Below are positions 7,466 through 25,113 of a stretch of 64,000 nt of DNA, in pieces. The DNA is from Paracoccus everestensis (lineage in GTDB: Bacteria; Pseudomonadota; Alphaproteobacteria; Rhodobacterales; Rhodobacteraceae), in assembly GCF_021491915.1 (NCBI RefSeq), contig NZ_CP090836.1:2094501-2158500 (forward strand). The letters run 5' to 3'. Position 1 is the first letter of the stretch, and each line of letters begins with the position of its first letter. The notes beneath the pieces are model-generated. The model worked only from the letters and a program-made list of their open reading frames with translations. It was not told the DNA's origin and ran no database searches. The translations under genes and the position numbers were made by a program.

Positions 7466-7550
7466 GGGCGCGGCATGGCCGATGCGGGGGGCGGCGTCAA
7501 GCTGGCATGGCCGCGCCTCTCCGGGTCTTATCCCGCACAGGGCCGAAGCG

Positions 7551-8022: not shown

Positions 8023-8045
8023 CCCTTCTTCATTCCAACCGCAGA

Positions 8046-9080
8046 TCAATACCGCGAAGCCATTGCCGACAGCGGCAGCGGCACGATCTTGTCGGCGTTG
8101 CCGGCCGTGCCGAAAGCCTCGAAGCGGTCCTTGCAGACCTGCGACATCATCTGCATCGCGGGCTTGAGGTATTTGCGCGGATCGAACTCGGACGGTTCCT
8201 CGGAAAACACCTTGCGGATCGCGGCGGTCATGGCCAGGCGGTTGTCGGTGTCGATGTTGACCTTGCGCACGCCGTGCTTGATGCCGCGCTGGATTTCCTC
8301 GACCGGGACGCCCCAGGTCGGCTTGATGTCGCCGCCATAGCTGTTGATGATCTGCTGCAGATCCTCGGGGACCGAGGACGAGCCATGCATCACCAGATGG
8401 GTGTTGGGCAGGCGGGTGTGGATTTCCTCGATCACGTGCATCGCCAGGATGTCGCCATCGGGCTTGCGCGAGAACTTGTAGGCGCCGTGCGAGGTGCCCA
8501 TGGCGATGGCCAGCGCATCCACCTTGGTGTCGTTGACAAAGCGCACGGCCTCGTCCGGGTCGGTCAGAAGCTGGTCGTGGCCCAGTTGTTCCGTCGCGCC
8601 GTGGCCGTCCTCCTGGTCGCCCATGCCGGTTTCCAGGCTGCCCAACACGCCCAGCTCGCCTTCCACGGATACGCCGCAGGCGTGCGCCATCTGCACCACC
8701 TGGGCGGTCACGTCGCGGTTATAGTCGTAATCGGCGGGCGTCTTGCCGTCGGCTTTCAGCGATCCGTCCATCATCACGCTGGTAAAGCCGTTCTGGATCG
8801 CGGTGGCGCAGGTCGCCAGACCGTTGCCGTGGTCCAGATGCATGCACAGCGGGATGTCCGGGAAGGCGCGGGCAAAGCCCTGGATCAGCCCCGCCAGCAC
8901 CAGGTCGTTGGCATAGGCGCGCGCGCCCCGGCTGGCCTGCAGGATCACCGGCGATTTCGTCGCCTGCGCTGCGGTCATGATCGCCAGACCCTGCTCCATG
9001 TTGTTGATGTTGAAGGCGGGGACCGCGTAGCCATTCTCGGCCGCGTGGTCGAGAAGCTGGCGCAGGGTAATCATAGCCAT
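8046..9080 (-). CDS. fba: Class II fructose-bisphosphate aldolase, Calvin-cycle (CbbA) subtype
   Basis: A zinc-dependent aldolase of 344 aa. It interconverts fructose 1,6-bisphosphate with DHAP and glyceraldehyde 3-phosphate. CbbA-type enzymes of autotrophs also form sedoheptulose 1,7-bisphosphate from DHAP and erythrose 4-phosphate. Visible are the zinc/catalytic motif [19 protein letters not shown] with the second metal ligand, GTSHGAYKF and VMHGSSSVP. The tail [21 protein letters not shown] matches the CbbA type closely. It is the last gene of the minus-strand eryR-eryH-eryI-fbp-fba run, 4 bp after fbp and followed by a terminator. That setting suggests it handles erythrose 4-phosphate made by the neighbours (inference). 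Confidence 0.95.
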
Positions 9081-9084
9081 GTCG

Positions 9085-10065
9085 TTATCCTTCGGTGGGT
9101 TCGGCCAGATAGCCGAGGATCGTCTCGACCTCGTCCTTAGCGCCGAATATCAGGGGCGTCATGTCGTGTACCGCTAACGGTTTGCGATAACGGATGGGCT
9201 GCGTGCCGTCGGATGCAAGGCCGCCCGCCTCTTCGACCAGAAAGGCGATGGGCATCGCCTCATAGACCAGCCGCAGCTTGCCGTTTCCGTATCCGGGGCG
9301 CCGGTCGGCGGGATAAAGGAACGCGCCCCCGTTCAGCAGGATGCGGTGCAATTCGCCCACGGCGGCGGCCAGCCAGCGCATGTTGTAGTTCTTGCCCAGC
9401 GGCCCGTCCCGGCCCGCGCGCAGATCGGCGACCCAGGCTTGCAGCCCCGACGTCCAGTGGCGTTCGTTCGACGCGTTATAGGCGATGGTGGATGCCTTGG
9501 CCTTCAGCACGACGTTCTCGCGCACCATGCGGAACTCGCCCGCCTCGTCGTCCCAGCCGGCGATATGGGTGCCGTCGCCCAGGGACCAGCCGAAATCCAT
9601 CGAATGGCCGAAGCTGGCATAGCCCGCAGCCACCACCGATTCACCCGTCCGCAGAAAGCCTTCGGGCGCGGCGGGCAGGATGGAAAACAGCATCCCCAAG
9701 GGCGCGCCGATGCCGATGCTGCCCGATCCGTCGATGGGGTCCATCGCCACGTCCCAGGCGCCGTCGGGGTTGAGGGGAATGACCGCCTCGGCTTCCTCGG
9801 ACAGGACCTGGCGGACACCGGCGCGGCGCAGCACCTCGATCATGTGGTGATGGGCGCCCACGTCCAGCGCCTTCTGCTTGTCGCCGGTGTCGTTGACGCC
9901 CACGATCTCGGTCGGGTCGCCGTGCAGGCGTCCCGCGGCCAGACGCTGCATCAGCGGGGGCTGCGCCTCGGCAATGGCGCGGACAATGGCGGCGGGGCCA
10001 CCCCCTGTCAGCACCTGCGACAGCAGGCGGCCCGTGGCCGGGCCGTCGTTCGGCAGTTTCAGCAT
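9085..10065 (-). CDS. fbp: Class 1 fructose-1,6-bisphosphatase (possibly also sedoheptulose bisphosphatase)
   Basis: A class 1 FBPase of 326 aa that dephosphorylates fructose 1,6-bisphosphate; several bacterial CbbF-type enzymes also accept sedoheptulose 1,7-bisphosphate. The metal-binding core reads [12 protein letters not shown] where most class 1 enzymes have DPLDGSSNIDVN, so this is a divergent branch. Other landmarks are [16 protein letters not shown] (near the phosphate site), [25 protein letters not shown] and FLVEEAGG. It lies 3 bp after eryI and 4 bp before fba, so one operon. Being with fba and opposite tkt, it probably serves the same carbon rearrangement. Substrate preference cannot be read from sequence. 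Confidence 0.9.
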
Positions 10066-10068
10066 CCC

Positions 10069-10530
10069 TCAGGCCTTGTTGTATTTCGAATCGACCGCGT
10101 CGATTGCGTTCACGTTGCCTGCGGACTTGCCGGCCTTGTCGAAGTTCTGGGTCTCGGCCAGCCAGGCATCAGCGATGGCCTTGGCCAGTTCCGGGCCGAT
10201 CACGCGCGCGCCCATGGTGATGACCTGCGCGTCGTTCGACAGCGCGGCGCGGGTGGCGGAATAGGTGTCATGGGTCAGCGCGGCGCGGATGCCCGGCACC
10301 TTGTTGGCCGCGATGCAGACGCCAATGCCCGTGCCGCAGACCAGGATGGCGCGGTCAAAGGTGCCGTCCTTGACCTGGGACGCCACGCGGTCGGACAGGT
10401 TGGCATAGAAGGCGTCCGGGCCTTCGTCGGTGCGGCTGATTTCCGACACCTGATGTTTGTCTTTCAGATGGTCGGCCAGAACCTTGGCCAGACCCTCGCC
10501 CGCGCTGTCGCCTGCAATTGCCAGTTTCAT
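10069..10530 (-). CDS. eryI: D-erythrose 4-phosphate isomerase EryI (RpiB family)
   Basis: An RpiB/LacAB-type isomerase of 153 aa. In Brucella the RpiB homologue of the erythritol locus (EryI) makes D-erythrose 4-phosphate, the last step of the pathway. The start is [15 protein letters not shown], with the ATG overlapping the eryH stop (ATGA). The active-site region [22 protein letters not shown] carries the catalytic Cys of the family. The usual SDHAG near the N-terminus is GDSAG here, consistent with a non-ribose substrate branch. Its position directly after eryH supports EryI over a general ribose-phosphate isomerase. Confidence 0.9.
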
Positions 10531-11300
10531 TGCTTTTCTCCGATGGTTGCGGCGCAGCGCGCCAGGATGTCGAGATAGCCGTCCACGTTCCAGGCGGACC
10601 GGCCGATGAACAGCCCGTCGATATGCGGGCAGGAAATCAGTTCCTCGCAATTGCCCGGATTGACCGAGCCGCCGTAAAGACAGGGCACGCGGCGCCCCAG
10701 CACGTTCTGCGCGACCGCGACGATCTCGGCCTGGCGGGCATCGGCATAGTCGGACGTGGCGGGGATCCCGTTAACGCCGATGGCCCAGACAGGTTCATAG
10801 GCCAGCAGGATCGTGGCGTTCTTCTGATCGCCTGTCAGCTTGCCAAGCGCGCCGCGCACCTGCGTTTCCAGCACGTCCTGGGCACGGCCGGATTCGCGTT
10901 CGGCCAGCGTCTCGCCGATGCAGATCAGGGGGATCAGCCCGTGACGGACCGCGGCCTCGGTCTTTAGGCCCACGGTGTCGTCCGTCTCGCCGAAATGCTC
11001 GCGCCGTTCGCTGTGGCCCAGTTCCACGATGTCGAGGTTGCAGTCGCGCAGCATCACGGGGCTAATCTCGCCCGTCCAGGCGCCCTCGTCGGCCCAGTGC
11101 ATGTTCTGCGCGCCGACCTTCACGGATGTGCCTGACAGCCATTCCTTGACCTGCCGCACGGCGGTGAAGGGCGGGATCACGAAACGCTGGATGCGCGGGT
11201 CGCGGCCCGCATCGGCGGCGGCCAGGCCTTCGGCAAAGACGCGTGCCTGATCCAGCGTCTTGTTCATCTTCCAGCTTGTGCCGATCCAGAAATCCGTCAT
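10527..11300 (-). CDS. eryH: Tetrulose-4-phosphate isomerase EryH (TpiA2, triose-phosphate isomerase family)
   Basis: A TIM-barrel isomerase of 257 aa from the triose-phosphate isomerase family. In Brucella the homologue (TpiA2/EryH) isomerises D-3-tetrulose 4-phosphate in erythritol breakdown. Catalytic Lys is in GTSWKMNKT (residues about 7-15; housekeeping TIMs have GNWKMN), catalytic His in [13 protein letters not shown] and catalytic Glu in [10 protein letters not shown]. The phosphate loop [10 protein letters not shown] is also present. The start is MTDFWIGTS at 11300, 4 bp after the eryR stop; its own stop overlaps eryI by ATGA. This is probably not the only TIM of the genome. Confidence 0.92.
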
Positions 11301-11304
11301 GCGC

Positions 11305-12069
11305 TCAATCCCTTGCAATGGTCAGCCGCAGCCCGGCCCGCTCGATCGCGGCGCGATCATGGGGCGCGGGGGCGGCGTCGGTGATGATGGCGTCGAAGTC
11401 GGTCAGGTCCGCCAGCGCGTGCAGCGCGGACCGGCCGAAGCGAGTGTGGTTGACCAGCAGCACCGCCCGGTCGGCGGCAGAGATCATCGCGCGCTTGGCG
11501 CGCACCGCCGCGTCGTCCATGTGGAAAGCCCGCAGCCCGGCCACGGCAGGCGTGGAAATAAAGGCCAAATCCGCGCGCAGCCGCGACAGCGCATCCTCGG
11601 TCACGACGCCGAAGAAGCCGTTGAACTTGGCGCTGTAGGTGCCGCCAAGGGCGATCAGCGTCACGCGCGGCGCGTCCTTCAGTCGGTCGATCACGGCGGC
11701 GTTGTTGGTGATGACGGTCAGGGGGGCCTTGTCGACCAAGTTGGCGCCCAACAGCGCCGCCATGGACCCGTCGTTGACCATCACGGTCATGCCGGGTTCC
11801 ACCAGATCCAGCGCCGCGCGGGCCATGCGGGCCTTGGCATCAGAGTCCTGCAACGCACGGATGCGAAAGTCGCTCTCGAACTGGGTGCCCGCCTCGATGG
11901 TGGCGCCGCCGCGCACCTTGCGCAGCAGACCCGCCTGTTCCAAGTCGTCCAAGTCGCGGTGGATGGTCATGCGCGACACGGCGAAACGGTCGGCCAGATC
12001 GTCCAGATCCACGGCGCGGGCGCCGACCAAAAGGTCCATGATCGCCTGCCTGCGTTCGTCGCGCTTCAA
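11305..12069 (-). CDS. eryR: DeoR-family transcriptional regulator of the erythritol genes (EryR)
   Basis: A DeoR-type repressor of about 254 aa. The N-terminal helix-turn-helix segment reads ERRQAIMDLL, then VDLDDLADRFAVSRMTIHRDLDDLEQAGLLRKVRGGA, a textbook DeoR signature. The C-terminal sensor domain includes ARAALDLVEPGMTVMVNDGSM. I take the TTG at 12069 (reading LKRDERRQ) because AGGAGG lies 5 nt before it and the length fits the family; the ATG at 12108 has no ribosome site. It heads eryR-eryH-eryI-fbp-fba, matching the rhizobial deoR-tpiB-rpiB order. It probably binds the TTGTGA repeats at 12128-12166 and senses a sugar phosphate. Confidence 0.88.
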   Translation of the reverse strand: MKRDERRQAIMDLLVGARAVDLDDLADRFAVSRMTIHRDLDDLEQAGLLRKVRGGATIEAGTQFESDFRIRALQDSDAKARMARAALDLVEPGMTVMVNDGSMAALLGANLVDKAPLTVITNNAAVIDRLKDAPRVTLIALGGTYSAKFNGFFGVVTEDALSRLRADLAFISTPAVAGLRAFHMDDAAVRAKRAMISAADRAVLLVNHTRFGRSALHALADLTDFDAIITDAAPAPHDRAAIERAGLRLTIARD

Positions 12070-12127
12070 CCATGCCTCCTGCGTTGGGGCGGTTGTAACA
12101 CCGCCCATCGAAATCGCAACATGATTT

Positions 12128-12166
12128 TTGTGACATTGTGATGGGCTTTTGTGATTATCGTTGTGA
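12128..12166. promoter_or_regulatory. Operator array: four direct TTGTGA repeats between eryR and tkt
   Basis: TTGTGA occurs at 12128, 12136, 12149 and 12161, all in the same direction, within 39 bp of the divergent eryR/tkt spacer. The spacing is 8, 13 and 12 bp; the last two steps are near one helical turn. DeoR-family regulators commonly bind direct repeats, and eryR lies next to it. The position would let one protein control both divergent units. Confidence 0.6.
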
Positions 12167-12212
12167 TCCGTGCCGGTCCGCGTTATTCACCCTCAAACCG
12201 TCGGAGGACCAT

Positions 12213-14243
12213 ATGCCCCTAGATTCGCCCAAAGACCCCAAGATCGCGGCCAAGGCCGACTTGGATCCGCAGAACTTCGCGCTGGCCAACTGCATTCGCG
12301 CGCTGTCCATCGACGCGGTGAACGCGGCGAATTCGGGCCATCCGGGCGCCCCCATGGGCATGGCCGACGCGGCCACGGTGCTGTTCCGCAACCACCTGAA
12401 GTTCGACGCCAAGAACCCCGACTGGCCGGATCGCGACCGCTTCGTGCTGTCGAACGGCCACGCGTCCATGCTGCTCTATTCCCTGCTGCACCTGACGGGC
12501 TATGAGGACATGACGCTGGAGCAGGTCAGGAACTTCCGCCAGTGGGGATCCATCACGGCGGGCCACCCGGAATACGGCCATGCCAAGGGGATCGAGACGA
12601 CGACCGGCCCGCTGGGCCAGGGTCTCGCCACGGCGGTGGGCATGGCATTGGCGGAACGGCGGCTGGCGGCAGAGTTCGGTGACGATCTGGTCGATCATCA
12701 CACCTATGTCTTCACTGGCGACGGCTGCTTGCAGGAAGGCATCGGGCAGGAAGCCATCAGCCTTGCGGGCCATCTGGGCCTGAGCAAGCTGATCGTGCTG
12801 TATGACGACAACGACATCACCATCGACGGCCCGACCTCGATCAGCTTCTCGGAAGATGTGCCCGCGCGCTTCCAAGCCTGCGGCTGGCACGTCGAGAGGT
12901 GCGACGGCCACGACGGCAAGGCGCTTGACGCGGCCATCGCGGCGGCCAAGGCGGAAACCGGCAAGCCCTCGCTGATCGCGATGAAGACGGTGATCGGCTT
13001 CGGCTCGCCCAACAAGGCGGGCAGCTATTCGGTCCATGGATCGCCCCTGGGCAAGGACGAGGCCGCGCTGACCCGCGAGGCGATCGGCTGGCCGCACGAG
13101 GCCTTTGTGATCCCCGAGGACCTGCTGTCGGAATGGCGCAAGATCGGCACCCGCGGCGCCACCGACCGCGAGGCTTGGGAAGCGCGTCTGGCGGGCAAGT
13201 CCGCCGAGGTCCGCGATGAATTCAACCGCCGCCAGTCGGGCATCCTTCCCGAAGGGTATGACGCCGCCGTCAAGGCCGCCCGCGACGCGCTGTTCGCGGA
13301 CCCCAAGAAGGCCGCGACCCGCAAGGCCAGCCAGATGGCGCTGGAGCCGCTGACCGCCGCCCTGCCGGAAATGATCGGCGGGTCCGCCGACCTGACCGGG
13401 TCGAACCTGACCCGCGTCAAGGCCGTGGACAGCCAGTACACGCGCGAGGCGCCGGGCCGCTATATCGGCTATGGCGTGCGCGAATTCGGCATGGCCGCCG
13501 CGATGAACGGGATCAACCTGCATGGCGGCTTCATCGCCTATGGCGGGACGTTCCTGGTCTTTTCGGACTATGCCCGCAACGCGATCCGCCTGTCGGCGCT
13601 GATGGGGGTCGGCACGATCTTCGTGATGACCCATGACAGCATCGGCCTGGGCGAGGATGGCCCGACCCACCAGCCGATCGAGCATCTGGCCAGCTTGCGT
13701 GCCATCCCGAACCTGACGGTCCTGCGCCCCGCCGACACGGTGGAAACGCTGGAAGCCTGGGACATCGCGATCCGCAACCGCAATGTCCCGTCCTTGCTGG
13801 CCCTGTCGCGCCAGGACGTGCCGCAACTGCGGCTAGAGGCCGGGGACGAGAACCTGACCGCCAAGGGCGCCTATGTGATCCGCCAGTTCGGCGAGGGCCG
13901 CGACGTGACGCTGATCGCCACGGGGACCGAGGTGCAGCTTGCCGTCCAGGCCGCCGAAACGCTGCATGGCCAGGGCCTGGCCGTCGCCGTCGTGTCGATG
14001 CCGTCGTGGGAACTGTTCGACGCGCAGCCCGAGGATTACCGCAACGCGACCCTAGGCGACGCGCCGCGCATCGCCGTGGAAGCGGCAGGCAAGTTCGGCT
14101 GGACGCGCTATGTCGCGTCCGAGGACGACGTGATCGGCATGACCGGCTTTGGCGCATCCGCGCCCATCGACCGGCTGTACCAGGAGTTCGGGATCACGGC
14201 GGATGCCATCGTCGCCCGCGCGAAGGCATTGACCGGCAAGTAA
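12213..14243 (+). CDS. tkt: Transketolase
   Basis: A thiamine-diphosphate transketolase of 676 aa. It moves two-carbon units between ketose and aldose phosphates, including erythrose 4-phosphate to fructose 6-phosphate. Landmarks are NAANSGHPGAPMGMA, ITAGHPEYGHAKGIETTTGPLGQG, the ThDP motif GDGCLQEGIGQEA, and in the middle domain MTHDSIGLGEDGPTHQPIEHL. Start ATG 12213 has GGAGG at 12203-12207; upstream in-frame ATGs overlap the operator array. It is divergent from eryR and shares its regulatory spacer, which ties it to erythrose 4-phosphate use. A genome would normally also have a housekeeping copy. Confidence 0.95.
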   Translation: MPLDSPKDPKIAAKADLDPQNFALANCIRALSIDAVNAANSGHPGAPMGMADAATVLFRNHLKFDAKNPDWPDRDRFVLSNGHASMLLYSLLHLTGYEDMTLEQVRNFRQWGSITAGHPEYGHAKGIETTTGPLGQGLATAVGMALAERRLAAEFGDDLVDHHTYVFTGDGCLQEGIGQEAISLAGHLGLSKLIVLYDDNDITIDGPTSISFSEDVPARFQACGWHVERCDGHDGKALDAAIAAAKAETGKPSLIAMKTVIGFGSPNKAGSYSVHGSPLGKDEAALTREAIGWPHEAFVIPEDLLSEWRKIGTRGATDREAWEARLAGKSAEVRDEFNRRQSGILPEGYDAAVKAARDALFADPKKAATRKASQMALEPLTAALPEMIGGSADLTGSNLTRVKAVDSQYTREAPGRYIGYGVREFGMAAAMNGINLHGGFIAYGGTFLVFSDYARNAIRLSALMGVGTIFVMTHDSIGLGEDGPTHQPIEHLASLRAIPNLTVLRPADTVETLEAWDIAIRNRNVPSLLALSRQDVPQLRLEAGDENLTAKGAYVIRQFGEGRDVTLIATGTEVQLAVQAAETLHGQGLAVAVVSMPSWELFDAQPEDYRNATLGDAPRIAVEAAGKFGWTRYVASEDDVIGMTGFGASAPIDRLYQEFGITADAIVARAKALTGK

Positions 14244-14250
14244 CCGGCCA

Positions 14251-14310: not shown

Positions 14311-14314
14311 TTTC

Positions 14315-15268
14315 CTATGGGTGGGCCAAGGCCACCGCCGTCGCCTCATCCGTGATCAACCCGCGCAACCGGCCGCTTTTCAGGGCGGCGCGGATCGCCT
14401 GCACCTTGTCGGCCCCGCCCGCGATCACCACCACGCGGCTGTCGCCCGGATCGTCCAGCGATGCCGACAGCGTGCGCGCCGACAGCGTGGTATCCAGCAC
14501 ATGGCCTTGGGCATCGAGGAAATGGCCCATCATCTCGCCTACCCCCCCTGCCGCGCGGATCTCGTCGATCTCTCGCGGCTCTATCATGCCGGATGCGACC
14601 AGTTGCGCGCCGGGATCGACCGTGCCCATGCCCACGAACTTCAGCCCCGCGCCATTGGCCAGGTCGAAAATCTCGCGCACGCCCGGTTGCGCCAGCAGCA
14701 CCGCGCGGTCGGTTTCCGAATTGGCAAAGAACGGCACCGGCAGGACATAGGCCTGCGCGCCGGTCTTTTCGGCCAGCCGGTGCATCACGTCATGGCGGTT
14801 GGCCGAGTAGTTCCGCGTCAGCCCGCCCAGCAGCGACACGAAATGCGTGCCGTTCGCATCGAAGCGCGGCAGTTCCCCGACCGCGGCGGCCAGCGTGCGG
14901 CCATGGCCCAGGCCGATGACGCGGTGTTCCCCCCGTTCGATTTCCCGGCGCAGAAAGCCGGCCCCCGCCAGGCCCAGGGCGCGCAAGGGGATCCCATCCT
15001 CGCCCAGATCGGGGGCAACCTCGCAGAAGGCCAGGCCGTAGCGCTTGCACAACCGATCCTCCAGCGCCGCGCATTCGACAATGGCGCCGTCGATGGAAAC
15101 CTTGACCGCGCCGTCGGCCACGGCGCGGGCGATCAGCCGATGCGCCTTGACGCCGGTGACGCCCAGCCGCTTGGCGACCGCCGCCTGGGTCAACCCGCCC
15201 GCGTAATGCAGCCATGCCGCGCGGGTGGCGAGGCTTTTTTCAGGGTCGATCCCGCCATGCCGCGCCAT
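14315..15268 (-). CDS. eryD: SorC-family regulator EryD of the erythritol operon
   Basis: A SorC/DeoR-C type regulator of 317 aa. The N-terminus has a helix-turn-helix (residues about 13-50: RAAWLHYAGGLTQAAVAKRLGVTGVKAHRLIARA, read here as two pieces of one motif). A sugar-phosphate-binding domain with [26 protein letters not shown] and VVIAGGADKVQAIRAALKSGRLRGLITDE follows. In Brucella and rhizobia EryD represses the ery operon and is relieved by erythritol. It is the last gene of eryA-eryB-eryC-adh-eryD, its ATG overlapping the adh stop (ATGA). Its likely site is the eryA/DUF2291 spacer. Confidence 0.9.
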   Translation of the reverse strand: MARHGGIDPEKSLATRAAWLHYAGGLTQAAVAKRLGVTGVKAHRLIARAVADGAVKVSIDGAIVECAALEDRLCKRYGLAFCEVAPDLGEDGIPLRALGLAGAGFLRREIERGEHRVIGLGHGRTLAAAVGELPRFDANGTHFVSLLGGLTRNYSANRHDVMHRLAEKTGAQAYVLPVPFFANSETDRAVLLAQPGVREIFDLANGAGLKFVGMGTVDPGAQLVASGMIEPREIDEIRAAGGVGEMMGHFLDAQGHVLDTTLSARTLSASLDDPGDSRVVVIAGGADKVQAIRAALKSGRLRGLITDEATAVALAHP

Positions 15269-16416
15269 CAGCCCGCCTCCTCCATGATGCGGCGCAACTC
15301 GTTTTCGGTCAGCGCCACAGGGTTGGCCTTCATCGAGGACGAGGTTGCCGCCGCCTCAGCTGCGGCGGTCTGCGCTTCGGGGCCGATGCCAAGCGCGGTC
15401 AGCGCCGGAAGGCCCGCGCGATGGGACCAGTCGGCAAGCGCCCGCGTGGCCTCGGGCATCGAGGCGAAGGGCGTGTCGAAACCCGCACCGATCCAGCGGG
15501 CCACCTGATCCAGACGCTCGATGGCACCCGGATCGGTCGCGGCGCGGCGGTTTGCCATCAACACATGGGGCAGCAACGCACCGCAGATTGCGCCATGGGG
15601 GGCGCCGGTCAGCCCGCCCAGCGGCCCGGCAAGGCCATGGACCGCGCCCAACCCGGCATTGGCAAGCGCCAGCCCGCCGCAAAGGCTGACCCAGGCCATC
15701 TCGTCCCGGGCTGCTGGATCTTCATCCTCCATCAACCGCCGGATCGCGGCCAGCCCGCGTGGGATCGCGTCGCGGCACAGCGCATCGGTCAGCGGATTGG
15801 CGCGGGTGCAGACGAAAGGCTCGATCACCTGGGTGATGGCATCGAGGCCCGAGGCCAGCGTCACCGCGCGCGGGCACCCGTCGGTTAGCGCCGGATCGAC
15901 GATCGCAAGGCGCGGCAGCATCCGCGCATCGCGGAGGCTGACCTTGCGGCGCTGTTCCGGCACGCCGATCACGGCGTTGCGCGTGACCTCGGCCCCCGTG
16001 CCGGCTATGGTGGGAATGGCGACAAAGGGCAAGGGCGGGTTGTCCAGCGGCAGGCCGTGGCCCACGACCTCAAGGTGATCCAGCATCGGGCGCGTGGCGG
16101 GAACAAGGGCGGCAATGGCCTTGCCCGCGTCGATCACCGCCCCCCCGCCCAGGGCCACGACAACATCAGCCCCCTGCGCCGCGCGGATGCCTTCCTGGAT
16201 CAAGGGAACATCCGGTTCGCGCGGGACGGCAAAGCCCGTGATTTTGCAGCCCTGCGCGGTCAGCGCATCGGCCAACCATCCCGCGCGGCCCGCGTCGCGG
16301 CCATGGACCAGCAGCACCCGTTGGCCCATCCCCTTGATCCGCGCCGCCGCGACAGCCGCCTGGCCCCTGGCGAACAGGATCTCGGTCGCGGTGGCAAAGG
16401 CGAAGGGCGCGACCAT
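15268..16416 (-). CDS. Iron-containing alcohol dehydrogenase inside the erythritol operon
   Basis: A group III (Fe-type) alcohol dehydrogenase of 382 aa. The nucleotide motif GGGAVIDAGKA is at residues 90-100 and IPTIAGTGAEVTRNAV at 134-150. The metal site is unusual: D192 and two histidines (H260, H274) are present, but the first His of the usual DAxxH motif is Gln196 (LDAITQVIE). It sits between eryC and eryD with ATGA overlaps on both sides, so it is certainly part of the operon. It is not part of the known EryABCHI pathway. It could oxidise a polyol (erythritol, threitol) or reduce a toxic aldehyde by-product; the sequence does not decide. Confidence 0.85.
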   Translation of the reverse strand: MVAPFAFATATEILFARGQAAVAAARIKGMGQRVLLVHGRDAGRAGWLADALTAQGCKITGFAVPREPDVPLIQEGIRAAQGADVVVALGGGAVIDAGKAIAALVPATRPMLDHLEVVGHGLPLDNPPLPFVAIPTIAGTGAEVTRNAVIGVPEQRRKVSLRDARMLPRLAIVDPALTDGCPRAVTLASGLDAITQVIEPFVCTRANPLTDALCRDAIPRGLAAIRRLMEDEDPAARDEMAWVSLCGGLALANAGLGAVHGLAGPLGGLTGAPHGAICGALLPHVLMANRRAATDPGAIERLDQVARWIGAGFDTPFASMPEATRALADWSHRAGLPALTALGIGPEAQTAAAEAAATSSSMKANPVALTENELRRIMEEAG

Positions 16417-17348: not shown

Positions 17349-17353
17349 GGCGG

Positions 17354-18871
17354 TCACGCAGCCTTTGCCAGATCGGACCCGTCGAACCAGTCCGCGAAGG
17401 CCTGCTGTTCGGCGGGCGTCAGGTGCAGGTAATGCTTGGTGCGGCGCATCAGGATGTCCTCGGGCGTTTGCGCCCATTCGCGGGCGACCAGATAGCGGAC
17501 CTCGGCTTCATAGAGCGTGCCGCCGAAATGGCGGCCAAGGTCCGCCATGTTCATCGCGCCCGCGACGACATCCCTGATCCGCGCGCCGTAAAGGCGGGCG
17601 TAATGAACGATCAGCGGGCGCGGCATCCAGGGATGCAGGTCGCGCTGCAGGTTCAGGAAAGATTCGAAATCGGCGTTGGCGATCTCTCCGCCCGGCAGGG
17701 GGGCGGCTTCGGTCCAGTCCGGTCCCATCTTGGGAAAGATGCCCTTCAGCCTGTGCATCCCGCGTTCGGCCAGTTCGCGGAAGGTGGTGATCTTGCCGCC
17801 GAATACGTTCAGCAGCGGCGCACCGCCGGTGGCGTCCAGGTCGAAGACGTAATCGCGCGTCACGGCGGACGGGTTGCCCGCACCGTCGTCAAACAGCGGG
17901 CGCACTCCGGAAAAGGCGTGCAGCACGTCCGAAGGGCGCAGCTTTTCCTTGAAATAGCGGTTCACGGCGGCCAGCAGGTAATCGATCTCGTCCTGGCCCA
18001 CGGCCACGTCCTCGGCCCGGCCCTCATAGGCCACGTCGGTGGTGCCGATCAGCGCCTTGTCGCCTTCATAGGGGTTGATGAAGATGACCCGCTTGTCGTG
18101 GTTCTGGACCAGATAGGCCTGCTGGCCCGACCACCATTTCGGCACGATGATGTGGCTGCCCTTGACCAGCCGGACCTTGCGGCCGGAATTGGACCCGGCG
18201 ACATTGTTGATGACATCGCTGACCCAAGGCCCCGCGCAGTTGACGATGCAGCGCGCACGGAAGCTGCGGATCTCTCCCGTGACCTCGTTGCGGGTCTGCA
18301 CGGTCCAGGCGCCGTTCTCGCGCCGGGCGGAAATGCAGGGGCTGCGGGTCAGGACGGTGGCGCCCTTTTCCGCCGCGCCGACCGCGTTCAGGATCACAAG
18401 GCGGGCGTCGTCCACCCAGCAGTCGCTGTATTCGAACCCCCTGTGATACTGGTTCAGCAACGGCGCGCCCTCGGGGTCGCGGCGCAGGTCCAGCGTGCGG
18501 GTGCCGGGCAGCTTCTTGCGCCCGCCCAGGTTGTCGTAAAGGAACAGGCCCAGCCGGACCAGCCAGGCCGGGCGATCCTGCGGCGAATGGGGCAGCACGA
18601 AGCGCATCGGCCAGATGATGTGCGGGGCGGCGTTCAGCAGCACCTCGCGCTCGATCAGGGCTTCGCGGACCAGGCGGAATTCGTAATATTCCAGATAGCG
18701 CAGGCCCCCGTGGACCAGCTTGCCCGACCGGGAGGACGTGCCCTGCGCCAGGTCGTCCTTTTCGCACAACACGACCTTCAGACCCCGGCCCGCCGCGTCG
18801 CGCGCCACGCCCGCGCCGTTGATGCCGCCGCCGATGACGAAAAGGTCGATCATGTCGGTGTCAGAGGTCAT
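17354..18871 (-). CDS. eryB: Erythritol 4-phosphate dehydrogenase EryB (GlpD-type FAD enzyme)
   Basis: An FAD-dependent oxidase/dehydrogenase of the glycerol-3-phosphate dehydrogenase family, 505 aa. EryB oxidises L-erythritol 4-phosphate to L-3-tetrulose 4-phosphate, passing electrons to the quinone pool at the inner membrane face. The Rossmann motif GGGINGAGVARDAAGRG is at residues about 14-30. GTSSRSGKLVHGGLRYLE and the C-terminal FGGKITTFRELAERGM are GlpD hallmarks. The start overlaps the eryA stop (ATGA). GlpD itself is the alternative, but the order eryA-eryB-eryC-eryD favours EryB. Confidence 0.93.
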   Translation of the reverse strand: MTSDTDMIDLFVIGGGINGAGVARDAAGRGLKVVLCEKDDLAQGTSSRSGKLVHGGLRYLEYYEFRLVREALIEREVLLNAAPHIIWPMRFVLPHSPQDRPAWLVRLGLFLYDNLGGRKKLPGTRTLDLRRDPEGAPLLNQYHRGFEYSDCWVDDARLVILNAVGAAEKGATVLTRSPCISARRENGAWTVQTRNEVTGEIRSFRARCIVNCAGPWVSDVINNVAGSNSGRKVRLVKGSHIIVPKWWSGQQAYLVQNHDKRVIFINPYEGDKALIGTTDVAYEGRAEDVAVGQDEIDYLLAAVNRYFKEKLRPSDVLHAFSGVRPLFDDGAGNPSAVTRDYVFDLDATGGAPLLNVFGGKITTFRELAERGMHRLKGIFPKMGPDWTEAAPLPGGEIANADFESFLNLQRDLHPWMPRPLIVHYARLYGARIRDVVAGAMNMADLGRHFGGTLYEAEVRYLVAREWAQTPEDILMRRTKHYLHLTPAEQQAFADWFDGSDLAKAA

Positions 18872-20439
18872 TCTTCATGTCCTTTCAGGGATCGGGCTGC
18901 GGCAAGGGCGTCCCATGCGGGCGGCAAGGCCCGGCGCGAGGCGGCGAAGGCCGGAAACAGCGCGTCATAGGCCGCGACAAGCGCGGGATCGGGTTGTTCT
19001 GCCTGTCCCAGCAGGGGCGTGACCCACTCGGCGATGCAGCTTTCCATGTCGGGATAGGCGCCGATGGCGACGGCGGCCATCATCGCCGCGCCCGCCGCGC
19101 CCGCCTCGTCGCGGTCGGATACGCGGACGGGGGCGTTCAGGCTGGCCGACAGGATCCCGCGCAGGCCCCGCGACCGGGCGGCCCCGCCGGTCAGGCGCAG
19201 TTCGCCGGGCAGCGGACCCATCGCGGCATAACAATCGCGCATGGCCATGCCCAGCCCCTCGGCCACGGCGCGGACCAGATCGGGGTATCGGTGGCCCGCC
19301 GACAGGCCGACAAAGCCTGCCCGCGCGTCGGCATTGACAAAAGGCCCTCGTTCCCCGGCGTCCGAGATATAGGGGTGATAGACGATCTGGCCGGGTTTCG
19401 CCTGCGCCAGCCAGCCCTCGATATGCGCGACCAGATCGCGATGGGTCACGACCTGGCCCATGTCGGACATGATGCCCGCCGCGATCCCCAGAACCCAGTC
19501 CAGGTTAAGGGTCGCCGCCATGTTGGTCTGGACCTGGGTGACGATGCCGGGAATGGGCAGGCAGATGACATAGCCGGTGCCCTCGGCGTTCAGATGCACG
19601 TCGCCCGCAGGGACCGCGCGCAGGTGGACGCCGGTGGACCCCACCGTGGAACAGGCCACGTCGCCTGCCGCGCCGCCATAAACGCCCGCGCCAAGCGCCG
19701 TCATCACCATGTCCACATAGCCCAAGGCGACCGGTGTGCCCGCCAGAAGCCCGGTCTGCCGCGCGGCATCCGCCGTCAGCGGATGCGTGACCTGGGTTCC
19801 GTCAATGATCGGCGGCAGCAGACCGCGGCGATGGGTCAGGCCAAGCGCGTCGATTACCGCGTCGTCGTATTCGCGGGTGCGGAAGTTGCCGAAGGTGAAG
19901 CCGGCTTCCGACGGATCGGTCGCCCGCACGCCCGTCAGGTTCAGGTAAAGCCAGTCCTTGCAATGCAGCGCGACCTCGGCCCTGTCCAGCAGGTCGGGCG
20001 CGTGGGCGTCCATATGCGCCATCTGGCTGCCCTGCTGGCAGGTGTTCAGGCCGGTGCCCGTCGCCTCGAACCGGGCGCGGTTGGCGGGGCCGTCCGCCAG
20101 CCGCGCCACGGTGGGCGCGGCGCGGGCGTCCAGCCACAGCCAGGCATCGTCTACCGGCCCGTCGCGGCCGACCAGCCATGTCCCGTCGCCCTGCGCCGTC
20201 ACCGACAGCGCCGCCGTGCGCGAGGCCAGGCCGTCCACCTTCGCCCCCAGCCCGCGCAACGCCGCCGCGCAATCGTCCCAGGTCTGGCCCAGCGATTGCG
20301 TGGCCGATCCGTCGACGCCCGAATGATAGCGGTTGGGCACAGATGCCGCAGCGATCTGCCCGCCCGACAGGTCAAAGGCCACCGCCTTGATGACCGAGGT
20401 GCCTGCGTCGATGCCGATCAGGATGTCACGGCCAAGCAT
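18868..20439 (-). CDS. eryA: Erythritol kinase EryA (FGGY family)
   Basis: An FGGY carbohydrate kinase of 523 aa that phosphorylates erythritol to L-erythritol 4-phosphate. The phosphate motif GIDAGTSVIKAVAFDLSG is at residues about 9-26. VTAQGDGTWLVGRDG and DDAWLWLDARAAPTV match EryA closely, and the C-terminal ATP-site motif reads LRLTGGAARSRGLRGILSA. AAGGA lies 8 nt before the ATG. It is the first gene of the minus-strand eryA-eryB-eryC-adh-eryD operon, divergent from the transporter operon. Confidence 0.95.
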   Translation of the reverse strand: MLGRDILIGIDAGTSVIKAVAFDLSGGQIAAASVPNRYHSGVDGSATQSLGQTWDDCAAALRGLGAKVDGLASRTAALSVTAQGDGTWLVGRDGPVDDAWLWLDARAAPTVARLADGPANRARFEATGTGLNTCQQGSQMAHMDAHAPDLLDRAEVALHCKDWLYLNLTGVRATDPSEAGFTFGNFRTREYDDAVIDALGLTHRRGLLPPIIDGTQVTHPLTADAARQTGLLAGTPVALGYVDMVMTALGAGVYGGAAGDVACSTVGSTGVHLRAVPAGDVHLNAEGTGYVICLPIPGIVTQVQTNMAATLNLDWVLGIAAGIMSDMGQVVTHRDLVAHIEGWLAQAKPGQIVYHPYISDAGERGPFVNADARAGFVGLSAGHRYPDLVRAVAEGLGMAMRDCYAAMGPLPGELRLTGGAARSRGLRGILSASLNAPVRVSDRDEAGAAGAAMMAAVAIGAYPDMESCIAEWVTPLLGQAEQPDPALVAAYDALFPAFAASRRALPPAWDALAAARSLKGHEE

Positions 20440-20819
20440 GGACTAATTCCTTGCGCGGCAGGCCGGGTTTCGCGGCAATCATTCCAAATCCTCCTGCGCG
20501 GGTCCGTTGCAGGACCGCGCCCATTCCCAAATCCATACACGAAAGGACAAGCACCGTGAATGCATTTTTTTGCAGACAGCGTAATTAATTTCAGTTAAGG
20601 TCAGGTTCAAGGGCAGGATCCGTCAGAGGAGGCGACTTGCCTGCCGGGCCGTGCAATCAGTCAACGCAGGCCAGGCCAAAAAGGTTACGAGGGGGGATCC
20701 GATATGCCCAGACCACAGGCATTGACGCCGCGCCGCCGGTGGGGGATTTCGCCTTGCGGCGCTTGCCCCGCATCCGCTGCCACCCGCCGACCCCCGGAAG
20801 ACATTCAGGGCTTTTACCC
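20440..20819. promoter_or_regulatory. Divergent regulatory spacer between eryA and the transporter operon
   Basis: This 380-bp stretch has no convincing gene. It should hold both promoters and the EryD operator. A candidate site is TGCA-T6-TGCA at 20561-20574, an inverted pair in the only AT-rich patch, followed by an AT-rich run (taattaatttcagttaa, about 20581-20599) that could be a promoter. There are no TTGTGA repeats as found upstream of tkt, so regulation probably differs. The last 180 bp before the DUF2291 start look like a long leader; I see no riboswitch fold in it. Confidence 0.5.
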
Positions 20820-21485
20820 ATGACGCACAGCACCGCCCCGAACCCTTCCGCCCCCAAGGCACCTGCCCCGTCGCGGCGCGGAATGCTGCTGGGCGTGGCG
20901 GCCATCGTCGTCTTGGCAGGCGCGATCGCGCTGGACACCACCGTCGTCCCCATCGGGTCCGAGGCCGATGTCCGCGTCCAGACCTTTTCGCCCGACAGCT
21001 ATGGGCAGGAACAGTTCCCGCGCGTCCAGGCCTTCGTCAAGGAAAAGGCGGTGGATGCCGCCACCCTTGCGCCCGAGGTGCTGGCCGACAAGGACGCGGC
21101 GGCGCAGAAATACGGCACGGCGTCGTCCACCGGCGCGATCATGTTCGTGACCTTGACCGGCATCGCGGGCGAGGCACGGTCGGGCGTCTATCCGCTGACG
21201 GTGGAAGGCGTGCCGGAAGACATCACCGTCCGCGTCCAGACCGGCCCCGCGATCAACGGTACCGACCTGCGCGACGCGCCGGGCGACATCGCATTCGGCG
21301 ATTTCAAGAACCAGATCGAATACCAGGACGCCGGATCGGGCATCAACCGCGCCATGAAGGCCGCCGTTCTGGACGGCATCGACACCGCCAGCCTGACCGG
21401 CAGGTCCGTCACCGTCACCGGCGCCTTCCGCCTGATCAACCCCAAGAACTGGATGATCACCCCGGTCGAGGTTGCGGTCCAATGA
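20820..21485 (+). CDS. DUF2291 protein, first gene of the erythritol transporter operon
   Basis: A 221-aa DUF2291 protein of unknown role. Near the N-terminus is a single membrane segment (residues about 22-41, MLLGVAAIVVLAGAIALDTT) preceded by Arg residues, so it is a signal anchor with a periplasmic body. The body has repeated strand-like segments such as GAIMFVTLTGIAGEA and GRSVTVTGAFRLINPKNWMITPVEV. Genes of this family typically sit beside ribose-type ABC transporters of Proteobacteria, so a role in assembly or in handling the substrate is likely but unproven. Its stop overlaps the ATPase start (ATGA). Confidence 0.8.
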   Translation: MTHSTAPNPSAPKAPAPSRRGMLLGVAAIVVLAGAIALDTTVVPIGSEADVRVQTFSPDSYGQEQFPRVQAFVKEKAVDAATLAPEVLADKDAAAQKYGTASSTGAIMFVTLTGIAGEARSGVYPLTVEGVPEDITVRVQTGPAINGTDLRDAPGDIAFGDFKNQIEYQDAGSGINRAMKAAVLDGIDTASLTGRSVTVTGAFRLINPKNWMITPVEVAVQ

Positions 21486-23026
21486 GCGGGCCAGTGAGCG
21501 GGCAGACCGAAGGCAATCCCGATGCCCGCGACGTGGTCCTGGCCGCGCGCAACGTCGCCAAGTCATACGGCAATGTCCACGCGCTGAAGGGCGTGAACTT
21601 CGACATCCATCGCGGCCAGGTCACGACCCTGTTCGGCGAGAACGGCGCGGGCAAATCGACGCTGATGAAGATCCTGTCGGGCGTGATCCAGCCCACCACC
21701 GGGCAGATCATCCTGGACGGCCAGCCGGTCAGCTTTGCCAACGCGAACGAGGCCCGCGACCGGGGCATTTCCATCATCCACCAGGAACTGTCGCTGGCCC
21801 CCAACCTGTCGGTCCGCGACAACATCTTCATGGGGCGCGAATTGCGCGGCCCCATGGGCGTCGATTTCGCCGAGGAGGAACGCCAGGTCCGCATCCTGAT
21901 GGAGGAGCTGGAGGAGGATATCGACCCCCTTACCCCGGTCGAGGAACTGCGCCTGGGCCAGCAGCAGATCGTGGAAATCGCCCGCGCCCTGTCCGTGGAC
22001 AGCCGCATCCTGATCATGGACGAACCCACCAGCGCCCTGTCGGCCAGCGAGGTCGAGGTGCTGTTCAAGGTCATCCGCGACCTGACCGCCAAGGGCGTCA
22101 GCATCGTCTATATCTCTCACCACCTCGAGGAGGCGCTGACGATCACCGATCATGCGGTGGTGCTGCGCGACGGCACGATGACGGCCTATGCGCCGCGCGC
22201 CGACATCGACCTCGACTGGATCGTGCGCAACATGGTGGGCGAGAATTACGACCTGGGCAGCCCGCCCGACAGCGCCAAGGGGCAGGTCGCCCTGTCGATC
22301 CGCAATCTGTCGGTGCCGGACGCGACCGGCAAGGATCTGGTGCGCGATCTGTCGCTGGACCTGCGCGCCGGGGAAATCCTGTGCATCTATGGCCTGATGG
22401 GCGCGGGGCGCACGGAACTGCTGGAAACCTGCGCGGGACGGTTGCAGGCCACCGGCGGAGAGATCGTGCTGGAAGGGCAGGAAATATCCCACCTTTCCAT
22501 CGGCGAACGCATCGCCCGCGGCCTGGCCCTGGTGCCCGAGGATCGCCAGCGCGACGGCCTGGTCCAGACCATGAGCGTGGGCCAGAACCTGTCGCTGGCA
22601 TCCATCCGCACCTTCACGCGCGGGCTGTTCACCAGCAGCCGCGCGGAACGCAAGCTGGTCGAGGACAGCATCCGCAGCGTCACCGTCAAGACTTCGGGCG
22701 GGTCGGCCCCCATCGGCTCGCTGTCGGGGGGCAACCAGCAGAAGGTCGTGATCGGCAAGATGCTGGCCACCAACCCCCGCGTCATCATGCTGGACGAACC
22801 GTCGCGCGGCATCGACATCGGCGCCAAGGCCGAGGTCTTTCGCCTGCTGGCCGAAGGCGCCCGCCGGGGCCTTGCCGTCATCTATTCCACATCCGAGGTC
22901 AGCGAATGCCTGTCCATCGCGCATCGGATCATCGTCATGCACAAGGGCCGGATCTCGGCCGAATTCGATTCCACCGTTTCCAAGGAAAAGATCATGGCCG
23001 CCTCGGGCGAGTCCGTGACTGCCTGA
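21482..23026 (+). CDS. eryE: Erythritol ABC transporter, double ATP-binding protein (EryE)
   Basis: A 514-aa ATPase of the RbsA/MglA type with two ABC domains on one chain. Domain 1 has Walker A FGENGAGKST (about residues 54-63), signature LRLGQQQ and Walker B ILIMDEPTSAL. Domain 2 has the degenerate loop YGLMGAGRTEL usual for the class, signature LSGGNQQK and VIMLDEPSRGID. It powers uptake of a small polyol. The divergent eryA points to erythritol; relatives carry ribose or other polyols. The ATG overlaps the DUF2291 stop by 4 nt. Confidence 0.9.
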   Translation: MSGPVSGQTEGNPDARDVVLAARNVAKSYGNVHALKGVNFDIHRGQVTTLFGENGAGKSTLMKILSGVIQPTTGQIILDGQPVSFANANEARDRGISIIHQELSLAPNLSVRDNIFMGRELRGPMGVDFAEEERQVRILMEELEEDIDPLTPVEELRLGQQQIVEIARALSVDSRILIMDEPTSALSASEVEVLFKVIRDLTAKGVSIVYISHHLEEALTITDHAVVLRDGTMTAYAPRADIDLDWIVRNMVGENYDLGSPPDSAKGQVALSIRNLSVPDATGKDLVRDLSLDLRAGEILCIYGLMGAGRTELLETCAGRLQATGGEIVLEGQEISHLSIGERIARGLALVPEDRQRDGLVQTMSVGQNLSLASIRTFTRGLFTSSRAERKLVEDSIRSVTVKTSGGSAPIGSLSGGNQQKVVIGKMLATNPRVIMLDEPSRGIDIGAKAEVFRLLAEGARRGLAVIYSTSEVSECLSIAHRIIVMHKGRISAEFDSTVSKEKIMAASGESVTA

Positions 23027-23050
23027 TGGGCCGTTGAGCGAGGAAAACCT

Positions 23051-24082
23051 ATGTCTGCCACCACCACCGCGCCCAAGCAGGACGGCTTTAGCATCGGACG
23101 GCTGCTGCTGGAAGGCCGCGCCTTCTTTGCCCTGATCGCGATCATCGCGGTCTTTTCCTTCCTGTCGCCGAACTATTTCACACTGTCGAACTTTCTGATC
23201 ATGTCGTCGCAGGTGGCGATCTATGGCATTTTGTCCGTGGGGATGCTGCTGGTGATCCTGAACGGCGGGATCGACCTGTCGGTGGGATCCATCCTGGCGC
23301 TTTGCGGGGTCTGCGCGGGCGCGATGATGCAGGGCGTCACGCTGGAATGGGCGGGTGTGATCCTGTATCCGCCGGTCTGGGCCGTGGTGGTGCTGACCAT
23401 CGCCGTGGGTGCCCTGGTGGGCGCGCTGAACGGCGTGCTGGTCGCCTTCTTCAAGGTGCCGCCCTTCGTGGCGACCCTTGGCGTGATGTATGTGGCGCGG
23501 GGCGTCGCACTGCTGATGACGAACGGGCTGACCTATAACAACCTGCGCGGCACCGAGGCCTTGGGGAATACCGGCTTCAACTGGCTGGGCTTCAACCGCC
23601 TGTGGGGGATCCCGATCAGCGTGATCGTGCTGGCCGTGGTGGCAATCCTGGCCGGGCTGATGCTGTCGCGCTCGGCCTTTGGGCGCTGGCTTTATGCATC
23701 CGGCGGGAACGAACGCGCGGCGGAACTGTCGGGCGTGCCGGTGCGGCTGGTCAAGATCACCGTCTATACCATCTCGGGCGCACTGTCGGCGGTGGCGGGG
23801 CTGGTGCTGGCCTCGCAACTGACATCGGCGGGGCCGACGGCGGGCACGACCTATGAGCTGACGGCCATCGCGGCGGTGGTGATCGGGGGCGCGGCGCTGA
23901 CCGGCGGGCGCGGCGGGGTGCGCGGCACGATGCTGGGGGCCTTTGTCATCGGCTTCCTGTCAGCGGGCCTGGTGATCATCGGGGTGTCGTCATACTGGCA
24001 GACGGTGTTCACGGGCGCGGTGATCGTGCTGGCGGTGCTGATGAATTCCATCCAATACGGGCGCGGCGGGCGCAAGTCCTGA
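23051..24082 (+). CDS. eryF: Erythritol ABC transporter, permease (EryF)
   Basis: A RbsC-type permease of 343 aa with about 8-10 membrane segments, for example at residues 24-43 (ALIAIIAVFSFL region), 50-75 and 110-135. The family signature ILNGGIDLSVGSILALCGV is at about residues 73-91 and the cytoplasmic loop that meets the ATPase includes RSAFGRWLYASGGNERAAELSGV. A strong purine-rich GAGGAAAA precedes the ATG by a few bases. It lies 24 bp after eryE. Confidence 0.9.
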   Translation: MSATTTAPKQDGFSIGRLLLEGRAFFALIAIIAVFSFLSPNYFTLSNFLIMSSQVAIYGILSVGMLLVILNGGIDLSVGSILALCGVCAGAMMQGVTLEWAGVILYPPVWAVVVLTIAVGALVGALNGVLVAFFKVPPFVATLGVMYVARGVALLMTNGLTYNNLRGTEALGNTGFNWLGFNRLWGIPISVIVLAVVAILAGLMLSRSAFGRWLYASGGNERAAELSGVPVRLVKITVYTISGALSAVAGLVLASQLTSAGPTAGTTYELTAIAAVVIGGAALTGGRGGVRGTMLGAFVIGFLSAGLVIIGVSSYWQTVFTGAVIVLAVLMNSIQYGRGGRKS

Positions 24083-24165
24083 CGGGCCGATCCATACCGC
24101 CGGGGCCACGGGGTCCGGGCGGATCGTCCTGCCACCAAAGGCAGTTTTTTCAAGGGAGAGAGAGT

Positions 24166-25113
24166 ATGTTCACCATGACCCGCCGCGCGCTGCTTGCCGC
24201 CGCCGTCGCCATGCCTATGATGGCCGGTGCCGCCTCGGCCGAGGGGCTGATCACCATCATCGTCAACGACCCCGCGAACCCCTATTGGTTCACGGAAGGC
24301 GAGGTCGCCAAGGCCACCGCCGAGGAACTGGGATATACCGCCAACGTGGCCGCGCACCGGGGCGACACCAATACCGAAAGCACGCTGGTCGATACCGCCA
24401 TCACCAACAAGTCGGTGGCGCTGATCCTGGACCCGGCGAACGCCGACGGTTCCGTGGGCGCGGTGCAGAAGGCCGTCGATGCGGGCATCCCCGTCTTCCT
24501 GGTCAATGCCGAGATCAACCAGGAGGGCCTGGCCAAGGCGCAACTGGTGTCGAACAACGCCCAAGGCGCGGCCCTGGGCGCGCAGGCCTGGGTCGAGGCC
24601 GTGGGCGATGCGGGCAACTATGTCGAACTGTTCGGCGCGCCGTCCGACAACAACGCCCAGACCCGGTCGAACGGGTTCGAGACCGTGCTGACGCAGTATC
24701 CCGACCTGGTGAAGGCCGGCCAGGAAGTCGCCAACTGGGACCGCACCCAAGGTTACCAGAAGATGCAGTCGCTGCTGCAGGCGAACCCCGACATCATCGG
24801 CGTGATTTCCGGCAACGATGAAATGGCCCTTGGCGCGATTGCCGCGCTGAAAGAGGCCGGCAAGCTGGAACAGGTCAAGGTCGGAGGCTTTGACGGATCC
24901 CCCGACGCGGTCGAGGCCGTGAAGGCCGGCGAATTGCAATACACCGTCCTGCAGCCCGTCGCCGTCTTTGCCGAGGAAGCGGTGCGCCAGGCCGACAACT
25001 TCATCAAGAACGGCACGACCGGCGTGGACACCGAAAAGCAGCTGTTCGACTGCCTGCTGATCACGGCGGACAACGTGGACAACTATACCGGCCCCTTCGT
25101 CCTGGAACAGTAA
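24166..25113 (+). CDS. eryG: Erythritol ABC transporter, periplasmic binding protein (EryG)
   Basis: A type 1 periplasmic sugar-binding protein (RbsB-like) of 315 aa. The signal peptide ends near ASA (residues about 1-25, MTRRALLAAAVAMPMMAGAASA preceded by MFT). The ligand fold shows IIVNDPANPYWFTEGEVAKA, GDTNTESTLVDTAI and GVISGNDEMALGAIAALKEAG, typical of the ribose/allose group. GAGAGAG lies just before the ATG. The 83-bp gap after eryF and the terminator right after the gene make it the last of the operon. Confidence 0.9.
   Translation: MFTMTRRALLAAAVAMPMMAGAASAEGLITIIVNDPANPYWFTEGEVAKATAEELGYTANVAAHRGDTNTESTLVDTAITNKSVALILDPANADGSVGAVQKAVDAGIPVFLVNAEINQEGLAKAQLVSNNAQGAALGAQAWVEAVGDAGNYVELFGAPSDNNAQTRSNGFETVLTQYPDLVKAGQEVANWDRTQGYQKMQSLLQANPDIIGVISGNDEMALGAIAALKEAGKLEQVKVGGFDGSPDAVEAVKAGELQYTVLQPVAVFAEEAVRQADNFIKNGTTGVDTEKQLFDCLLITADNVDNYTGPFVLEQ

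Follow-up and report, generated by a model that had tools for sequence, protein, structure and literature searches.

Erythritol use in Brucella is encoded by a cluster (BAB2_0364-0378) that combines eryABCD, eryR-tpiA2-rpiB, an ABC transporter, and the genes fbp and fba for a fructose-bisphosphatase (FBPase) and a fructose-bisphosphate aldolase (PMC3522698, PMC11508834, PMC11005471). The cluster is reported to be induced by erythritol, with sedoheptulose 7-phosphate (S7P) formed from D-erythrose 4-phosphate (E4P) either by transaldolase (Tal) or by Fba/Fbp(-Bbp), a sedoheptulose-bisphosphatase (SBPase) bypass (PMC3522698, PMC11005471). Here we describe a related island at positions 8046-25113 of a 64,000-nucleotide stretch of Paracoccus everestensis DNA, the window, which corresponds to positions 2094501-2158500 of a genome (G000) that consists of a single contig (2,957,008 b, 99.17% completeness). 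The Brucella genes fbp-fba form a unit of their own, on the other strand, and the cluster as listed in these reports lacks a transketolase gene (tkt), whereas in the window fbp-fba directly follows eryI, tkt is divergent from eryR, and its product is the only intact transketolase (Tkt) found in the genome. We consider it likely that this erythritol locus possesses its own module for processing E4P, that Tal is the alternative in relatives, and that the island Tkt has replaced the housekeeping one.

Several elements of this proposal have precedents. Brucella Fbp is reported to act on sedoheptulose 1,7-bisphosphate (SBP), which Fba can form, and the route from E4P to S7P was demonstrated experimentally (PMC11005471). 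Single mutants grow on erythritol and an fba tal double mutant fails, such that tal or fba is required (PMC11005471), a result described as confirmed in a second strain (PMC11508834). In B. abortus, erythritol is reported to induce fbp, fba and a tal (PMC3522698), and a 2013 paper already pointed out that fba adjoins the erythritol genes of Brucella and Mesorhizobium (PMC3599248). The Fba and Fbp route to S7P was already published for Brucella in 2024 (PMC11005471); what we add is a module that includes tkt, the way it alternates with tal, and the replacement of housekeeping Tkt by the island enzyme. No report of tkt within ery loci was found in the open literature searched, and the word “transketolase” does not occur in Geddes 2013. 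Our analysis extends the Brucella route to free-living Rhodobacterales, now with a comparative basis.

An earlier reading made from the sequence alone had placed eryA, eryB, eryC, eryH, eryI, both regulators and an ABC transporter in one island, together with an extra class II aldolase, class 1 FBPase and transketolase. All proved to be intact open reading frames, and the three additional enzymes match their profiles, with Fbp slightly below the cut-off. Two further genes, for an iron-containing alcohol dehydrogenase and a DUF2291 lipoprotein, did not feature in that reading. The genes are as follows.

8046-9080, minus strand: fba, class II fructose-bisphosphate aldolase, CbbA-like (TIGR01521, 605.6 bits; cut-off 496.35)
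9085-10065, minus strand: fbp, class 1 fructose-bisphosphatase, proposed SBPase (NF006780, 349.3 bits; cut-off 358)
10069-10530, minus strand: eryI (rpiB-type), putative D-erythrulose 4-phosphate isomerase (NF051858, 242.6; cut-off 240)
10527-11300, minus strand: eryH, tpi-type isomerase (NF000722, 431 bits)
11305-12108, minus strand: eryR, DeoR/GlpR-type regulator (DeoR-family models, none above cut-off)
12109-12212, no strand assigned: shared eryR/tkt promoter region, likely operator (four TTGTGA direct repeats, at 12128, 12136, 12149 and 12161)
12213-14243, plus strand: tkt, transketolase of the island clade (TIGR00232, 842.4; cut-off 682.25)
14315-15268, minus strand: eryD, sugar-binding transcriptional regulator (profile match; orthologous position annotated likewise in locus L066)
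15268-16416, minus strand: iron-containing alcohol dehydrogenase (PF00465/PF25137)
16416-17348, minus strand: eryC, TIM-barrel tetrulose-phosphate racemase/epimerase (PF01261; 11-row alignment)
17354-18871, minus strand: eryB, GlpD-like erythritol-phosphate dehydrogenase (NF009906, 859.5 bits)
18868-20439, minus strand: eryA, FGGY erythritol kinase (FGGY kinase models, none above cut-off; gene order)
20637-21485, plus strand: DUF2291 lipoprotein, true start probably closer to 20820 (PF10054)
21482-23026, plus strand: ABC transporter ATP-binding protein (profile match)
23051-24082, plus strand: ABC transporter permease (profile match)
24166-25113, plus strand: ABC transporter substrate-binding protein (profile match)

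The genes eryR-eryH-eryI-fbp-fba form a compact minus-strand array in which neighboring genes lie apart or overlap by no more than 4 b. Divergent from eryR lies tkt, followed on the minus strand by eryD, the iron-type alcohol dehydrogenase gene, eryC, eryB and eryA, with the DUF2291 gene and the ABC transporter transcribed away from eryA. The island thus contains the eryABCD, eryR-tpi-rpiB and ABC transporter genes of a Brucella-type erythritol locus, in an order that matches L066 and other relatives. The names EryA, EryB and EryC rest on family, gene order and literature, and EryI is predicted to be a D-erythrulose-4-phosphate isomerase by a single model, NF051858, with a narrow margin. Annotation of a Paracoccus sp. 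TOH plasmid shows the same island, and an eryC-type gene with 85-95% identity occurs in ten genomes of the same genus.

To place the island among its relatives, an alignment of 11 EryC proteins was used for a profile search of genome contigs, and the best 80 of at least 541 relative-encoding stretches were retained; the counts therefore cover close relatives of the query EryC rather than all erythritol loci. In 70 of these 80 loci at least 7.5 kb flanks eryC on each side, and all counts below use these 70 unless otherwise given (43 from Rhodobacterales, 24 from Hyphomicrobiales, two unplaced, one labelled Enemella). Locus states were called by tblastn with window proteins and tal proteins. The co-occurrence of the additional genes with eryABC exceeds chance, and they recur in many other genomes. 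Twenty-one loci carry fba, fbp and tkt, ten carry fba and fbp, three carry all four of fba, fbp, tkt and tal, eight carry tal, two carry tkt and tal, three carry fbp alone, and 23 carry none. Thus, fba and fbp occur together in 34 of the 70 loci, and tal without this pair in ten. Furthermore, tkt is present in 26 of the 44 loci that have fba and fbp or tal, and in none of the remaining 26.

The arrangement of the module also varies. The order in the window is found in 15 loci, an fba-fbp-tkt unit divergent from eryR in six, and an inversion of the whole block in four, with other orders lacking tkt. The pair fba and fbp can lie downstream of eryI, within a unit tkt-fbp-fba that diverges from eryR, or at a locus without tkt. 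The fewest changes on a tree of EryA, EryB and EryC are nine for fba and fbp, eight for tal and eight for tkt. The module is found beside ery genes on named plasmid records of Roseibium, Roseinatronobacter and Thalassospira as well, and fba, fbp, tkt and tal are all lacking from plasmid ery loci of Shinella and Rhizobium leguminosarum. The Rhizobium locus L072 and the Shinella locus L068 resemble the island in having eryABCD, eryR-tpi-rpiB and a transporter with DUF2291 (Geddes 2013, PMC3599248), but differ in being without these four genes. One contig labelled Enemella evansiae (Actinomycetota; L112) bears a Rhodobacterales-like ery locus with an 87% identical EryC, reflecting either recent transfer or contamination.

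The distribution of tal is informative with respect to function. Among the 43 Rhodobacterales loci, 29 have only fba and fbp, eight have only tal, three have both sets, and three have neither. This alternation gives a Fisher p of 1.5e-4 for the 43 loci and of 0.0028 for 28 rows representing one per genus and state, both of which ignore descent. In all 13 tal-bearing loci (14 if one truncated at the end of its contig is included), tal sits in the unit divergent from eryR, and its assignment to family PF00923 was confirmed in three loci tested and in two plasmid cases. The unit of Antarctobacter locus L107 consists of tkt, an N-terminal piece of fbp (query residues 25-79), a C-terminal piece of fba (205-344) and an open, intact-looking tal. 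Deletion has thus removed fbp and fba there, with tkt and tal retained. The ery island of Aestuarium carries tkt-tal, and outside ery islands the order tpiA-tkt-tal is found on S. meliloti pRM41A. Since tal replaces fba and fbp, and tkt accompanies either, S7P formation seems to be the shared purpose, and we read fba with fbp and tal as two interchangeable S7P-forming routes.

The island enzymes probably turn the four-carbon product of the pathway into a seven-carbon sugar phosphate. EryA, EryB, EryC, EryH and EryI would convert erythritol to E4P, which Fba would join to dihydroxyacetone phosphate (DHAP) to yield SBP. Hydrolysis of SBP by Fbp would produce S7P, and it is plausible that the Fbp of the window has this activity, as proposed from Brucella Fbp. 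Tkt would then convert S7P and glyceraldehyde 3-phosphate (GAP) into two pentose phosphates, and subsequently xylulose 5-phosphate and a further E4P into fructose 6-phosphate (F6P) and GAP, for a net conversion of 3 E4P and DHAP to 2 F6P, GAP and inorganic phosphate. In related islands, transaldolase would make S7P instead of, or alongside, Fba and Fbp. A flux model consumes no E4P when neither Tal nor Fba is available and Gnd is absent, and all E4P when Fba and SBPase are present without Tal. Consumption is zero when Fba and FBPase are restricted to six-carbon substrates, and also without Tkt in every case tested. Seven-carbon activity is therefore what would make Fba and Fbp useful; we infer this substrate specificity, and the flux through the module, for the island enzymes.

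The sequence-only reading had suggested that the cluster could process E4P without transaldolase, and had named a genomic tal gene as something to look for. One TAL_FSA gene lies outside the island, at 398614-399252 on the minus strand of the genome. It encodes a TalC-type transaldolase, as judged by its matches to solved relatives (1vpx, 1.7e-73; 3r8r, 8.2e-71) compared with E. coli FSA entries (about 1e-31). The explanation that this genome lacks transaldolase is thus ruled out, the bypass is not forced by a missing tal, and the case is not one of Fba and Fbp working where transaldolase is lacking. Likewise, the module is not present because its hosts have no tal at all, since each of the 49 other ery-locus genomes searched yielded TAL_FSA. 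Processing of E4P without transaldolase is supported by the flux model, by the Brucella experiments and by the exchange of tal for fba and fbp, but it is not the only way open to this cell. By a hand tally, 22 of 24 genomes with an fba and fbp locus have only the short TalC type, and 11 of 15 with a gene-less locus have the long type; this split follows that between Rhodobacterales and Hyphomicrobiales and is not causal evidence.

Several observations weigh against a dedicated E4P-processing module. Because the genome has a TalC-type tal, the bypass is optional rather than obligatory, and in the flux model Tkt alone suffices when Gnd is active. Neither set of genes is present in 20 of the 24 Hyphomicrobiales loci, and the module is therefore dispensable there. 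Within Rhodobacterales, two of the 43 loci lack fba, fbp, tkt and tal, and one has fbp alone. Three loci hold fba and fbp together with tal, and independent pairs on the EryABC tree, of which there are too few, provide no significance for the alternation (median p 0.5).

The strongest competing explanation is that Fba and Fbp use six-carbon substrates and serve ordinary gluconeogenesis, turning triose phosphates into F6P either while the cell grows on erythritol or in general; we regard this as unlikely. The reading was proposed in a 2012 Brucella paper (PMC3522698), and no intact PF01116 gene other than the island fba was found in the genome. No match to the class I aldolase model PF00274 was found in the window genome (0/1) or in 61 Paracoccus genomes (0/61), although this model gave no match in any control genome either. 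Conversely, 21 of the 61 Paracoccus genomes, some of them incomplete, have no above-cut-off match to the class II model PF01116. An intact GlpX-type FBPase is encoded elsewhere in the genome, and F6P is already a product of E4P processing. In the flux model, enzymes confined to six-carbon substrates leave E4P unused unless Tal or Gnd is present, and gluconeogenesis leaves unexplained why tal occupies the eryR-divergent unit of other islands. The S7P route, which the sequence-only reading had offered as the reason for having fbp and fba in the island, is thus favored by the alternation with tal and by the Brucella data. Nonetheless, fba and tkt may also be used in general metabolism, because they are the only intact copies of their families found in the genome. 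One more PF01116 match in the window, the third and below threshold, falls within a solute-binding protein.

To assess the relationship of the island Tkt to other transketolases, we screened 61 Paracoccus genomes with PF00456 and classified 92 listed Tkt sequences from 59 of them, one row short; two of the 61 have no full-length Tkt among the matches listed. The sequences fall into island, Calvin and housekeeping clades. Among the matches listed, to which all counts in this paragraph refer, a housekeeping tkt is missing from 12 of the 19 genomes with an island-clade Tkt and present in 40 of the 40 without one (Fisher p 4.5e-8, which ignores descent). The island-clade tkt lies beside eryR-tpi-rpiB in 16 of the 19 genomes, ten of which lack the housekeeping gene. 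Weaker cases are G017 (71% complete) and G056 (620 contigs), and the island-clade gene of G054 is outside an ery island. Loss of the housekeeping tkt requires at least three changes on the island Tkt tree. The island enzyme is the only full-length Tkt in G000, G052, G067 and the incomplete G017; G052 and G067 have an extra, shorter two-subunit-type PF00456 match, and G000 is without one. Island Tkt thus appears to have taken over from a lost housekeeping transketolase in the genome of the window and in several relatives, and we infer a constitutive housekeeping use of tkt.

These data also accommodate a less probable alternative than gluconeogenesis, namely that the main reason for retaining the module is that tkt (and fba) turned into general housekeeping genes, such that the link to erythritol is historical. 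In its favor, among the matches listed, the housekeeping tkt is missing from 12 of the 19 genomes with the island-clade enzyme and from none of the 40 without it. However, seven of the 19 genomes have the module in spite of a housekeeping tkt, among the matches listed, the module is preserved in islands outside Paracoccus as well, and putative EryR repeats lie in the tkt promoter region. We therefore favor a module that processes E4P. The broader proposal, that ery islands carry a non-oxidative pentose phosphate pathway (Tkt with interchangeable Fba and Fbp or Tal), that island Tkt has repeatedly displaced housekeeping Tkt in Paracoccus, and that the island is now indispensable, seems to us evenly balanced between true and false. 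Displacement of a housekeeping Tkt by an island copy would show an accessory element turning essential, in a form open to testing, and harmless Paracoccus species offer a setting for studying the bypass. Time and again, tkt and one S7P route or the other have joined these islands, which makes downstream processing of E4P look like a step that hosts supply poorly. This agrees with a report that extra tal and tkt improve growth up to three times in E. coli equipped with ery genes (PMC10190533).

Beyond the island, the genome encodes a second triose-phosphate isomerase. For class 1 FBPase, transketolase (two pieces) and class II aldolase, its remaining above-cut-off matches are fragments, located at 2916-2920 kb. 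They belong to a decayed Calvin operon (L010, genome positions 2908000-2927000; about 7465-12880 within L010). Compared with intact cbb operons of relatives, the frames for a LysR-type regulator and phosphoribulokinase are open and the RuBisCO small chain is detected by Pfam, but cbbF, cbbT and cbbA are disrupted or have lost part of their length, and of the RuBisCO large chain only the C-terminal part is left (residues about 336-488 of 489). The island consequently supplies the only intact tkt (PF00456), fba and class 1 fbp (PF00316) found in this genome. Paracoccus Calvin operons (cbbF-P-T-A-L-S; L170, L156) share enzyme families and SBP chemistry with the island, but no phosphoribulokinase or RuBisCO gene is among the island genes identified, and the island is thus not a Calvin (cbb) operon. 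Although cbb operons hold the same three enzymes and a decayed one resides in this genome, it is very improbable that the island genes are passengers captured from a Calvin operon with no role in erythritol use. Island Fbp, Fba and Tkt form strongly supported clades of their own, distinct from the cbb copies of Paracoccus, which rules out derivation from the local Calvin operon. The module also remains linked to ery genes across rearrangements and in several families, and the island frames are intact.

A comparable association of enzymes has been described for Bacillus methanolicus plasmid pBM19, an accessory element with Fba, SBPase and Tkt (fba/glpX/tkt) that operates the SBPase variant of the ribulose monophosphate (RuMP) cycle (PMC11005471, PMC3905653). 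As compared by description, pBM19 differs in serving methylotrophy and in using a GlpX-type phosphatase. A second relevant case is S. fredii pSfreGR64a, which carries tkt-fbp-fba-tpi-rpiB without eryABC (L259, 8974-14324), possibly reflecting another four-carbon substrate that shares the same module. The S. fredii operon adjoins an ABC transporter for sugars and, across a gap, a four-carbon acid sugar kinase gene.

The shared promoter region of eryR and tkt contains a candidate operator. Its four TTGTGA direct repeats (12128-12166) are the sole cluster of at least three TTGTKA motifs per 60 b in the 64-kb window, and the repeat region was aligned across 22 loci. Clusters of TTGTKA occur in 14 of the 80 loci, always beside deoR. 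The repeats overlap a sigma-70-like consensus match at 12130-12158. Control of tkt by EryR through the putative repeats is only a guess, because such sigma-70-like matches are no more numerous than in shuffled sequences, and no EryR site was reported for the Ochrobactrum eryD-eryR gap (PMC10190533). The latter result speaks against a general EryR operator in that gap.

Other features of these loci vary among relatives. The gene for an iron-type alcohol dehydrogenase, which lies between eryC and eryD in the window, is present in 25 of the 70 loci. An additional FGGY kinase gene, whose product shares about 30-45% identity with EryA, was not found in the island of the window; it is present in 36 of the 70 ery loci, often with a second GlpD-like gene. 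Elsewhere in the window, a frame for a SelB-like selenocysteine elongation factor occupies positions 245-1738 on the plus strand, and a predicted tRNA-Sec (1621-1717, plus strand) overlaps its end.

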